Positions 9,328 through 22,036 of a DNA stretch of 41,169 nucleotides are shown piece by piece. The notes beneath the pieces are model-generated. The model was not told the DNA's origin. It saw only the letters and a program-made list of their open reading frames with translations, and made no database searches. The DNA is from a virus: positions 1 through 41,169 of IMG/VR virus record IMGVR_UViG_3300032116_000481; one strand, written 5' to 3'. A program made the translations under genes and the position numbers. The first letter of the stretch is position 1. Each line of letters starts with the position of its first letter.

Positions 9328-10146
9328 ATGGGTGGACAAAGCGTTGATGCCAGTAAATATCTACAAAAGCCAGATGATACGGCAATGTATGCACTTCTTG
9401 CCGCTAAACAAGCTGGCGGAGGACAGTTCCTTCAAGGACAAGCTGAACTATTGAAGGAGTATGCAAAACTTCCACCAAAAATGCAGGCATTTGATTCTGG
9501 AAAAGTATCAAAAGAAGCGTCTGAGTTTGGTTTAGAAAACATATTCCGTTCCCGCGAGATTGAAAGGCTAACTGATCCAGCGGCTGCAAGAATGCGTAGC
9601 GAAATGGGGGGCAGAGTTGCAGAACTCACAGATATTGCAGCTACGCAGAGAAGCATGGATGATTGGGCTAAACGACAGGGCTTAATTTCTGGATACCAAA
9701 CAGGACTTGGGGCAAGCACTATTGGTCGATCCGCAATGTATGACATGGGAACAGAAGCTGGGCGTCAGGCTAGGCTTCGCAATCTTTCACTTCAACAAGG
9801 ATACCTTGCTCAAACACCTGCTCCAATTGGTGGACTTGATCCAGCAACGGCAATTCAGGCTGAAATGCAAGCAAAAGCCGCAAACTTGCAAGCGATGCAA
9901 CAATACCAGCAAAATGTATTTGCAGGAGGTCAGAGATTGCAACAATCTACTTCTGATTGGATCAATCAGAACCTTGGCGAGTTGCAACAGGCAAATCAAG
10001 TATCTCAACAGAATAAACAAAATTACGAAGAGTCAATGTATCAAAATGCTGTTCAAAATGCAGCATCGCAGAATGCAATGACTGGAGCGTTGATTGGTGC
10101 TGGAGGTGCTGTGGCTGGAGCCGCTGTTGGTGCGATTATTATTTAA
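9328..10146 (+). CDS. Putative ejection / internal virion protein, 272 aa (paralogue B)
   Basis: The ATG at 9328 is chosen because it gives MGGQSVDASKYLQKP, matching the start of the upstream paralogue, and has GGAAGG 8 bp upstream. Shared blocks with paralogue A include LGLENIF-type DFGLENIFRSREIERLTDPAAARMR, YQTGLGASTIGRSAMYDMG, and YLAQTPAPIGGLDPATAIQAEMQAK. The C-terminus ends in a glycine-zipper-like hydrophobic segment (ALIGAGGAVAGAAVGAIII) that could insert in a membrane, which paralogue A has in weaker form. The pair most likely arose by tandem duplication and may form a mixed inner core ring. Confidence 0.65.
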   Translation: MGGQSVDASKYLQKPDDTAMYALLAAKQAGGGQFLQGQAELLKEYAKLPPKMQAFDSGKVSKEASEFGLENIFRSREIERLTDPAAARMRSEMGGRVAELTDIAATQRSMDDWAKRQGLISGYQTGLGASTIGRSAMYDMGTEAGRQARLRNLSLQQGYLAQTPAPIGGLDPATAIQAEMQAKAANLQAMQQYQQNVFAGGQRLQQSTSDWINQNLGELQQANQVSQQNKQNYEESMYQNAVQNAASQNAMTGALIGAGGAVAGAAVGAIII

Positions 10147-10982
10147 TGAGACATCACCTAATAAATAAAACAATAAATAGAATAAAAGAGTGGAACAAAA
10201 GATGGCCTAGATCAGTTGTGTTATGGAGTGGAGGAAAGGACTCTACTGCATTACTCCATCTTATTCGATACGGAGCAGAGATTGATATTCCTGTTATCCA
10301 GTATCGTCAACCAAAGTTCCGTGAGCGATATGCCTATTCTGATCAACTTATCAAGGAATGGGGCTTAGAGGTATATGAGTATCCTCCAATGAAGGTGGCA
10401 TTGGCAGATGGGCCTGATGTGAATACTGGTGAGGTTAGATTTGATATGCTCCATTATTTTCAATGGGGTCAGAATTGTGTTGTGTTATCTTTGGGAACAG
10501 AGAAGCCAAAGGATGGCGAGAATTTTCTGTGTGGAGTTACTGACTTTTTGCAACGACCTACTGGAACATTCAACTGGCCATGGGGAGCAGTGTATATTGG
10601 AACCAAATACGAAGATACTGACCTAATCAAGGGCCATGTTCCGCTTGCTCAAGACATCCGAATTGTAGATGGTGCGCCAGTATCACTATATCCAATGCGA
10701 GACTGGACTGATGATGAGATATTCCAGTATCTTGAAGAAAGCGGAGTTTCTGCTGATCCAACTCGATATATTAAAGAAAATGGGAAATGGAAGAACAATC
10801 CAGACAAGTCACTAAATGCTGACTTCTACCCGACTTGTTTTAATTGCGTAAATCGTCATTTAGGTCGCCATGTGCATTGTCCTAAACTTAACGCTACTAT
10901 TACGAATATAAGTGATATGGTTCAATACGAGGATATAGTTATTGATGATCTTGGATTCCGTCCTGTTGAATGGAAGAAGTAA
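10146..10982 (+). CDS. PAPS-reductase-family (adenine nucleotide alpha hydrolase fold) protein, 278 aa
   Basis: The PP-loop SGGKDS lies at residues 28-33 after a strand SVVLW. PMRDWTDDEIFQYL (183-196) matches the L/MRDWT motif of phosphoadenosine phosphosulfate reductase-family enzymes. A Cys set C231, C234 and C245 (CFNC...HCP) could bind metal or be redox active. The single-Cys ECGLH tail of CysH is absent, so true PAPS reduction to sulfite is doubtful. Many phage members of this family are of unknown reaction: sulfur transfer or nucleotide activation are options. It overlaps the previous stop by one base and the next gene by 13 bp, so it is co-translated with virion genes. A role in DNA or protein sulfuration is speculation. 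Confidence 0.75.
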   Translation: MRHHLINKTINRIKEWNKRWPRSVVLWSGGKDSTALLHLIRYGAEIDIPVIQYRQPKFRERYAYSDQLIKEWGLEVYEYPPMKVALADGPDVNTGEVRFDMLHYFQWGQNCVVLSLGTEKPKDGENFLCGVTDFLQRPTGTFNWPWGAVYIGTKYEDTDLIKGHVPLAQDIRIVDGAPVSLYPMRDWTDDEIFQYLEESGVSADPTRYIKENGKWKNNPDKSLNADFYPTCFNCVNRHLGRHVHCPKLNATITNISDMVQYEDIVIDDLGFRPVEWKK

Positions 10983-17315: not shown

Positions 17316-17918
17316 ATGAAGTTTGAGGCGAAGTCAGTTGATCCATCACTAATGCCATTTAGTGATTCCGAGATTATCGGTGATCATCTGATTATCCCTG
17401 TGGTTGATTATGGTGCTAGGGAAGATCATTCATTCCTCGTAGCACTTGGTAAACTGGTCGAAACATTCGTCCGCTCAAAGTCGATTAGTGGTCATTCGAT
17501 TGCTGATGATGTTGAGAAGATGGTCTGTGAGCATATCGGATTGAACTGGGATGAGCATTGCGACTGGGTTCAGAGAGCATTGGATGAATCGGAGCGCAGC
17601 CGTGCGCTAATTCAATCTGTGATACTCCGCGATGGGCCTAGATACTGGGCGGAACTACATTTGTTCTCACTTCGCAACAGGAACTGCCAAGACCTAGCAT
17701 TCATGCAGAGTTGGTTTAAGAACTGGGTTGATTCTATTCCGTGGAATGGTTGCCCGTGCCAACAACATTTTGAAGACTATTGCAAGCAATTTCCTCCAGA
17801 TTTTTCAGACTTGTGGAAATGGGGAATTGGTATACATAACGATGTCAACTCGCGGAATGGAAGGTCAGTATTGTCTCTTTCTGATGCAGAGAATTTATGG
17901 AAAAAAAGACTTACATAA
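17316..17918 (+). CDS. Erv1/ALR-like sulfhydryl oxidase domain protein, 200 aa
   Basis: The C-terminal 95 residues follow the Erv1/ALR layout. GPRYWAELHLFSL (108-120) gives the WxxLH flavin helix. C146-P-C148 replaces the usual CxxC redox pair. Then PPDFSDLWKWGIGIHNDVNSRNG (160-182) carries the H174-N175-x-x-N178 FAD-binding motif, and LSDAENLW matches the final helix. The first 100 residues are not recognised and contain C71 and C82. Family members use FAD to pass electrons from dithiols to oxygen and so make disulfides. The C-x-C pair is an odd variant that may change redox potential or mean loss of activity. Leader ATAAATAAATAAATG, no SD. Function in disulfide formation in a virion protein is inference. 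Confidence 0.6.
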   Translation: MKFEAKSVDPSLMPFSDSEIIGDHLIIPVVDYGAREDHSFLVALGKLVETFVRSKSISGHSIADDVEKMVCEHIGLNWDEHCDWVQRALDESERSRALIQSVILRDGPRYWAELHLFSLRNRNCQDLAFMQSWFKNWVDSIPWNGCPCQQHFEDYCKQFPPDFSDLWKWGIGIHNDVNSRNGRSVLSLSDAENLWKKRLT

Positions 17919-20862: not shown

Positions 20863-21210
20863 TTATTTTTCCACAACTGCACCGCATGAATCAGTTTCCC
20901 ATAGCGTTACTTTTTTTACACAACCAAGTTGATTGTTAGCTTGGTTAAATATCCATGCTGCTATGTTTTCTGATGTTGAAGGATGTATAATTATATCATT
21001 TAGATACGAATGATCCAGTCTGTCAATTATTGGCTGGATTCGTTTTTTGATTTCATCAAAATCCTTTATCATTCCACTTTGATCTGTTCTGCCAGAAATT
21101 TCTATTCTTACCTTGTAGTTATGTCCATGTATTGCAGAACACGGATGCCCTTCAATCTTTAAATTGTGAGCCGCACTAAATGCAAAATCTTTAAATATGG
21201 TAGTCTTCAT
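20863..21210 (-). CDS. queD: 6-carboxytetrahydropterin synthase-like protein (QueD), 115 aa
   Basis: The zinc site H15, H28, H30 (FSAAHNL and HGHNY), catalytic C24 (HPCSAIHGH), LDHSYLND (65-72), PSTSENIAAWI (78-87) and LWET (103-106) match QueD of the 6-pyruvoyl tetrahydropterin synthase family, at the usual 115-120 aa. QueD converts dihydroneopterin triphosphate to carboxytetrahydropterin, the second step to preQ0. It overlaps the 80-aa gene upstream by 4 bp (ATGA), which itself overlaps the dpdA-like gene, so all three are one translational unit. QueC, QueE and FolE are not in the window and may be elsewhere in the genome or come from the host. Confidence 0.9.
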   Translation of the reverse strand: MKTTIFKDFAFSAAHNLKIEGHPCSAIHGHNYKVRIEISGRTDQSGMIKDFDEIKKRIQPIIDRLDHSYLNDIIIHPSTSENIAAWIFNQANNQLGCVKKVTLWETDSCGAVVEK

Positions 21211-21449
21211 TCTCTAACGCAGGTTATTTTTATTCCGTAGTGCCATCCAACAACTTCCACTTTCGCTCCCAGCTTGGCGCGGAGATGGTCAGCAAGGTCT
21301 TCTTGGAAGATTTGCTTTGGTGCGGATGCTAGGATTTCCATTAAATCCTCAACGATAAGCGTGTCATGGCTCGTTATTTTGATCTCGTATGTGTCAATCA
21401 ATTTCCCGTTTGGGCAAGTAGCCCTATGCGTGGTTTCGTATGTATTCAT
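21207..21449 (-). CDS. Small protein coupled to dpdA and queD, 80 aa
   Basis: It is joined by ATGA overlaps to the dpdA-like gene upstream and queD downstream. The product has one Cys near each end (C12 and C77), a central IVEDLMEILASAPKQIFQEDLADHLRAKLGAKVEVVGWHYG and final ITCVRE. The pattern looks like a small alpha/beta fold with two strands around a helix. No domain is recognised. Being locked between two 7-deazaguanine genes, it may be a subunit or adaptor of the modification pathway, which is inference. Confidence 0.65.
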   Translation of the reverse strand: MNTYETTHRATCPNGKLIDTYEIKITSHDTLIVEDLMEILASAPKQIFQEDLADHLRAKLGAKVEVVGWHYGIKITCVRE

Positions 21450-22036
21450 AATAGTTTTGGTTGGTTGTGAAGGTCGTATATTGCTTTACGCATATGGGTG
21501 TATCGCCCAAGTCCTGTTCCATCGAGCGAGTCAACTCCAAGATTTTCAAAATACTCAAAGCGTCCGGGTGTATTCACGCGACCAACATGAACCCATTTCT
21601 CTAATGCCTGAGCCGCTTTAATAATCTGAACCACATGGTGCGACATTTTCCAATCAGTAGAACCTCCAATAAAAATCGCAGTAAAATCATCCCAAGGAAT
21701 CTCCAAGTCTTCTTGCCCGTCTTGAGCAACAAACGCAAGTGGGAAATCAATTCTATTTTTCCATCTGTGAAACACCTCAATGGTTCTCCTTGCGCTTCCA
21801 ACAACATCTGGAACAGCAACCCATCGGCATAAGTGTTTTTCTGATCTTTGCCTTTCCAATAGAGACAAGAATCCTTTTAATTCAAATGTAGCAAATGCTC
21901 CATTGTCCATGCAGTAATGCTTTCCGGGAGCTTGAATAGCTCTACGAGTAAGCGGAGTAATAAGTTGCTCAACATGGCAACCAAGTTCTTCACCTGCTTT
22001 TTGAAGATTGCCAGATGTATCCAGCATTACAATCAT
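21446..22036 (-). CDS. dpdA: DpdA-like 7-deazaguanine DNA transglycosylase, 196 aa
   Basis: The protein is a short TGT-fold member: D44-NGAF (catalytic-type Asp), VAVPDVVGSARRT (73-84), LAFVAQDG (100-107), IFIGGS (121-126), HVGRVNTPGRFEYFENLGVDSLDGTG (150-175). This order (DxGAF, PD, QG, GGS, H.GRV, D.DGT) matches the phage DpdA group of tRNA-guanine transglycosylase relatives that swap guanine in DNA for preQ0 or related bases. It has no zinc domain of bacterial Tgt, and its length is that of the shorter phage types. The neighbour queD supports the pathway. Leader CTATAAATAAATATATG; it is preceded by a cloverleaf-like structure. Base identity cannot be read from sequence. Confidence 0.8.
   Translation of the reverse strand: MIVMLDTSGNLQKAGEELGCHVEQLITPLTRRAIQAPGKHYCMDNGAFATFELKGFLSLLERQRSEKHLCRWVAVPDVVGSARRTIEVFHRWKNRIDFPLAFVAQDGQEDLEIPWDDFTAIFIGGSTDWKMSHHVVQIIKAAQALEKWVHVGRVNTPGRFEYFENLGVDSLDGTGLGRYTHMRKAIYDLHNQPKLL

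Follow-up and report, generated by a model that had tools for sequence, protein, structure and literature searches.

Three overlapping genes on the minus strand

The virus record IMGVR_UViG_3300032116_000481 is linear and 41,169 bases long, and the window analyzed here is that whole record. Its minus strand carries, in order, a gene for a 196-amino-acid predicted base-exchange enzyme of the TGT/DpdA type (mini-DpdA; positions 21446 to 22036), a gene for an 80-amino-acid protein (p80; 21207 to 21449), and a gene for QueD, a 6-carboxytetrahydropterin synthase of 115 amino acids (20863 to 21210). Each gene runs into the next through a 4-nt ATGA stop/start overlap on the same strand, at 21446 to 21449 between mini-DpdA and p80 and at 21207 to 21210 between p80 and QueD; both junctions appear as tcat on the plus strand. 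The initial annotation had placed the three reading frames and their overlaps correctly, and every motif that it quoted was found in the translations, both for mini-DpdA (D44-NGAF, VPD, VAQDG, GGS, HVGR, and DGTG) and for QueD (H15, C24, H28, H30, LDH, and WET).

The same gene order occurs in relatives L002 to L005, L018, and L096, and identical 4-nt overlaps recur in such relatives, for example in L003 to L005, L018, and L096. Among the junctions measured, the overlap was present at 10 of 17 between mini-DpdA and p80 and at all 7 between p80 and QueD. Because both the order and the overlaps recur in relatives, the arrangement is not a product of chance. When the window was compared with L004, dN/dS was 0.03 for mini-DpdA and 0.07 for both p80 and QueD, values obtained with dS saturated. 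The three overlapping genes are real and under purifying selection.

Mini-DpdA resembles a reduced DpdA

No Pfam or NCBIfam family matched mini-DpdA, which falls in PHROG 15826 (E = 6.9e-39), labeled as of unknown function in PHROGs. Relatives with less than 60% identity were found by tblastn in 24 phage records, and a profile scan of viral contigs recovered 523 related stretches. Many of the relatives found by tblastn have already been named "DpdA-like tRNA-guanine transglycosylase" by SEA-PHAGES annotators, so the resemblance to DpdA is not new. Direct sequence searches of the PDB returned chance matches only, for canonical DpdA as well as for mini-DpdA, and a canonical DpdA HMM at E < 1e-10 misses the shorter protein. 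Comparison of profiles by hhalign matched mini-DpdA to phage DpdA with a probability of 96.2 (E = 2e-9); in this alignment D44-NGAF lies opposite the D-S-G-A-F of phage DpdA.

The AlphaFold2 model (pLDDT 93.3, pTM 0.89) places eight strands in barrel order. Foldseek matches in the PDB were TIM barrels, with ThiG first by E-value and TGTs forming the largest group from rank 5 onward (probability 1.00, TM-scores of about 0.50 to 0.58). In a viral fold library, 3 of the 20 best matches were named queuine tRNA-ribosyltransferase, including that of Arthrobacter phage Sonali. Residues D44, D77, Q105, G124, G125, and D172 were invariant across 51 sequences and follow what we take to be the TGT order of acid/base Asp, Asp, Gln, Gly-Gly, and nucleophile Asp. 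The initial annotation had staked its dpdA-like call on the presence of a TGT barrel; a confident beta/alpha barrel with mostly TGT matches in the PDB, the phage DpdA profile match, and the motifs in TGT order all bear that call out. On this combination of sequence and model, we read mini-DpdA as a reduced, very short transglycosylase of the DpdA/TGT type, predicted to exchange bases.

Several features are common to mini-DpdA and phage DpdA of PHROG 887 (9g, CAjan, Dp-1, and Rosebush): the barrel, the D-x-G-A-F acid/base motif, the GG loop, the C-terminal nucleophile Asp, and neighboring que genes. The two differ in family (PHROG 15826 versus PHROG 887), in size (196 amino acids versus about 225 to 310 in the phage DpdAs compared here), and in the glutamine of VAQDG, which is a histidine in other phage DpdAs. 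That this TGT glutamine is retained, together with the fact that TGT and archaeal QueF-Like enzymes work on tRNA, could point to a cassette directed at tRNA instead of DNA. We regard such a target as very improbable. The profile match is to phage DpdA, for which DNA modification has been demonstrated (PMC6884629), and several members of the mini-DpdA family belong to phages that carry a DNA dpdA/preQ0 cluster. In addition, the protein stops at 196 amino acids with neither a tRNA-binding PUA domain nor the zinc-binding C-terminal subdomain of TGT; since the zinc subdomain is a feature of tRNA-acting TGTs, its absence counts against a tRNA TGT and not against a DpdA-like enzyme.

Some phages carry two transglycosylases, with mini-DpdA beside canonical DpdA and preQ0 genes, as in Escherichia phage phiG7 (L010:7932-8524), Vibrio phage R29Z (L011:4767-5351), and Arthrobacter phage Sonali (L013:7932-8549). 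In phiG7 the mini-DpdA gene is split into two overlapping reading frames. The best match of mini-DpdA in the viral fold library was BFVD A0A0F7L9Z1, a protein of 499 amino acids from an uncultured marine virus (24% identity, TMq 0.75), in which the barrel may be fused to a second domain.

p80 as a minimal QueF/QueF-Like protein

p80 belongs to PHROG 37496, which has no annotation in PHROGs, and single-sequence searches with it returned nothing useful. A profile built from 11 relatives and searched against 177,635 PDB sequences gave the archaeosine synthase QueF-Like (5jyx) as the top match (E = 2.4e-4, with the runner-up at 0.16), and 5jyx again ranked first when the profile was widened to 39 relatives (E = 0.0015). 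Local hhalign alignment with QueF gave a probability of 88 (E = 3e-6), which fell to only 43 when the alignment was forced to be global (E = 4e-5). This comparison pairs p80 C12, D19, and E50 with C56, D63, and E98 of the QueF of L138, and the Cys-to-Asp spacing of +7 is the same in both proteins. The AlphaFold2 model of p80 (pLDDT 95) has the beta-beta-alpha-alpha-beta-beta topology of a T-fold, and its Foldseek ranks 1 to 13 were all QueF-Like chains of 5k0p or 5jyx (probability 1.00, E = 1.6e-5 to 9e-5, TMq 0.77 to 0.85), with other T-folds coming after rank 13.

The C12-P...D19 motif, encoded at positions 21393 to 21416 of the minus strand, aligns with the catalytic Cys and Asp of QueF and QueF-Like. 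C12, P13, D19, Y21, E34, Q49, G68, and H70 are invariant in all 39 sequences, and E50, which corresponds to the substrate Glu of QueF and QueF-Like, is conserved in 38 of the 39. A Gln-Glu pair replaces the His-Glu pair of QueF and QueF-Like, and the p80 alignment lacks the lysines that the QueF alignment shows in the NADPH motif E(S/L)K(S)xK. None of the 39 members matched the QueF family PF14489, even at E = 0.5, so that p80 is better described as "QueF-Like-like" than as a formal family member. With this qualification, sequence profiles and model together identify p80 as a minimal QueF/QueF-Like T-fold protein. The view that the 80-amino-acid protein has no known place in the pathway is corrected by the QueF-Like profile match, the T-fold, and the catalytic residues.

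By sequence and by fold, the closest PDB match of p80 is Pyrobaculum calidifontis QueF-Like (5jyx/5k0p), with which it shares the T-fold, the catalytic Cys and Asp, and the lack of a QueF-type NADPH motif. p80 is shorter (80 versus 109 amino acids) and has Gln-Glu where the archaeal protein has His-Glu, as well as an invariant His70. Unlike archaeal QueF-Like, it is viral and tied to a DNA-type transglycosylase, with no archaeal tRNA context. The phage QueF reductases of Dp-1, Cellulophaga phage phi38:2, and mycobacteriophage Funsized also share the T-fold and the same Cys and Asp, but they retain the NADPH motif E(S/L)KSxK, which p80 lacks, and their genes lie in full preQ0 clusters. p80 was not found by pattern scans of genomes from 84,980 species of bacteria and archaea, a result bounded by the patterns used, which suggests that p80 is confined to viruses that rarely integrate.

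p80 is coupled to transglycosylases and YhhQ

A search with p80 alone collected 47 viral loci, and in 46 of them a TGT/DpdA gene from one of two subfamilies adjoins p80. Counted by HMM assignment of neighbors over the nonduplicate loci plus the window, a transglycosylase lies nearby in 48 of 49 (28 mini-DpdA and 20 DpdA of the PHROG 887 type); the one exception, L098, has a truncated p80. The co-occurrence of p80 with dpdA, suggested earlier as a check, was thus positive. In Microcystis phage Mae-JY30 the PHROG 887 DpdA and p80 genes overlap by 4 nt, and in Rhizobium phage RHph_X2_30 a YhhQ gene (PF02592), a small gene, p80, and a PHROG 887 DpdA gene are consecutive.

Adjacency to a DpdA gene in all loci but one, in many cases with a 4-nt overlap, and the very small size of p80 would suit a noncatalytic partner or specificity subunit of DpdA, in which case the DNA would carry plain dPreQ0. 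A scaffold would have no need of C12 and D19, which are invariant in all 39 sequences, and we consider this role quite improbable.

The commonest supply gene adjoining p80 is YhhQ, found beside it in 16 of 49 records. PF02592 lies 14 to 255 bp from p80 in the 15 loci measured, and RHph_X2_30 is similar. This family comprises transporters of preQ0 and preQ1 (PMC5372724). A YhhQ-family gene is also immediately upstream of mini-DpdA in GreaseLightnin (L012:7382-7939) and ReqiPine5 (L014:7363-7896) and two genes upstream in Aoka (L015:7035-7562), an arrangement that suggests salvage of 7-deazaguanines. Mycobacteria have no Q-pathway genes at all (PMC6884629).

Pathway genes near p80 are fewer, with QueD in 8 loci and QueE in 3. 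The window's QueD matches the Pfam PTPS family (PF01242, E = 3.7e-33), exceeds the NCBIfam equivalog cutoff (TIGR03367, 97 bits versus 89.25), and retains the catalytic Cys and His residues H15, C24, H28, and H30, in agreement with the original queD call. FolE and QueC had been reported as absent, and in the 41,169-base record we likewise detected no FolE and no QueC above the cutoff; FolE was found in 0 of 15 p80 records.

QueC and p80 were mutually exclusive. QueC was found in 0 of the 49 p80 records (L090 to L136, L145, and L146), as against 40 of 75 mini-DpdA loci without p80, in which it adjoins mini-DpdA. Of 36 junctions measured between QueC and mini-DpdA, 34 were 4-nt overlaps. Close relatedness among many of these loci means that they represent fewer independent events.

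A predicted route to a modified guanine

Modification of phage DNA with 7-deazaguanines by DpdA is established, with dG+, dPreQ0, dADG, and dPreQ1 described (PMC6884629). In QueF and QueF-Like, a thioimide forms when the catalytic Cys attacks the preQ0 nitrile; QueF-Like, in which this residue is Cys21, then uses ammonia and not NADPH, and its substrate is preQ0-tRNA (PMC5485725). From the genes, the folds, the conserved catalytic residues, the missing NADPH motif, and the genomic coupling described above, we infer the substrates, DNA as the target, the order of steps, the product, and a protective role as follows.

The reading that we favor, with moderate confidence, is a minimal cassette for 7-deazaguanine in phage DNA, in which mini-DpdA inserts preQ0 and p80 turns it into deoxyarchaeosine. 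The preQ0 would come from the host pathway or from uptake: the host would supply FolE, QueE, and QueC, or preQ0 itself, and QueD would boost flux through the host pathway. Mini-DpdA would then swap guanines in phage DNA for preQ0, and Cys12 of p80 would attack the preQ0 nitrile, with Asp19 as the acid/base and ammonia as the added group. The product would be 2'-deoxyarchaeosine, which may protect phage DNA against host restriction enzymes. The initial annotation had predicted a 7-deazaguanine in the phage DNA. Such a base is supported by the identities of the DpdA-like protein and QueD, but the place of p80 as a QueF/QueF-Like protein in the pathway makes a processed base, deoxyarchaeosine, more likely than plain preQ0.

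Enterobacteria phage 9g provides the nearest precedent among dG+ cassettes, with FolE, QueD, QueE, Gat-QueC, and DpdA. Phage-encoded insertion of a 7-deazaguanine and a last step to G+, predicted here, are shared with 9g. Most pathway genes of the 9g cassette are missing from the present locus, however, and the last step would fall to a QueF-Like-like protein and not to Gat-QueC.

The same Cys/Asp chemistry could lead to another product, either dADG by hydration of the nitrile or dPreQ1 by its reduction, before or after insertion by mini-DpdA. Both bases are known from phage DNA, and the DNA of Dp-1 carries dPreQ1 and not dG+ despite a phage protein called "QueF-L" by HHpred (PMC6884629). Because that prediction failed, we hold the product of p80 at moderate confidence. 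The Dp-1 protein keeps its NADPH motif, unlike p80, and the missing NADPH-binding lysines of p80 speak against reduction. As for hydration, we are not aware of any nitrile hydratase with a T-fold that produces ADG. Overall, we regard a different nitrile-derived product as unlikely, if still deserving of some weight.

A different substrate is suggested by the distribution of QueC, for which our preferred reading gives no account. That p80 records lack QueC is odd if p80 acts on preQ0 and would also fit action on CDG, free or in DNA, for example by decarboxylation to 7-deazaguanine. p80 would then replace QueC, and the base would be dDG or some other derivative of CDG. Of the Que genes, those found with p80 are QueD and QueE, which carry out steps toward CDG. 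A phage CDG decarboxylase, DpdL, was reportedly predicted by Cui et al. in 2023; a text search of the literature for DpdL returned unrelated papers only. We considered the Gln-Glu pair of p80 as a mark of such a decarboxylase and rejected it as not diagnostic, as the QueF of phi38:2 has Gln-Glu together with an intact NADPH motif and adjoins QueC. Against CDG stand the invariant Cys and Asp, which are the nitrile-attacking pair of QueF and QueF-Like, and the frequency of YhhQ, a preQ0/preQ1 transporter family, beside p80; both favor preQ0 as the substrate. Action on CDG therefore seems to us rather unlikely.

Within the literature searched, three points appear to be new: the identification of p80, its almost constant association with DpdA, and the grouping of YhhQ, p80, and DpdA, although 2023 work on further DpdA subfamilies and enzymes could overlap with them. 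It is plausible, if a little short of probable, that p80 founds a hitherto unrecognized viral family of minimal T-fold enzymes acting on 7-deazaguanine within DNA and linked with two or more DpdA subfamilies and with uptake of preQ0 by YhhQ. If so, the family would represent a salvage-type modification of DNA with deoxyarchaeosine, or with a new base, that is encoded by three genes or fewer in many uncultured phages. Were p80 to work on DNA, it would be a DNA-acting T-fold enzyme, and strikingly small for an enzyme that modifies nucleic acids. It would also suggest a route past preQ0 for phages that lack a preQ0 pathway, by uptake and a one-step conversion. Two families without a function in PHROGs, mini-DpdA and p80, receive specific, testable roles, and the 523 mini-DpdA loci lead to the prediction that hundreds of uncultured phages carry modified guanine, some of them without recognized preQ0 genes.

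Other genes in the window and in related loci

A PP-loop gene on the plus strand of the window (10146 to 10982) was considered as the missing QueC and rejected, since it matches PAPS reductase (PF01507, E = 1.8e-7) and QueC only below the cutoff. Genes resembling PAPS reductase are likewise found close to mini-DpdA in ReqiPine5 (L014:8607-9524) and in Erythrobacter phage R6L (L016:9391-10434). Also on the plus strand, positions 17316 to 17918 encode a 200-amino-acid protein with a weak match to Evr1/Alr sulfhydryl oxidase (E = 1.6e-5), just under the Pfam cutoff.
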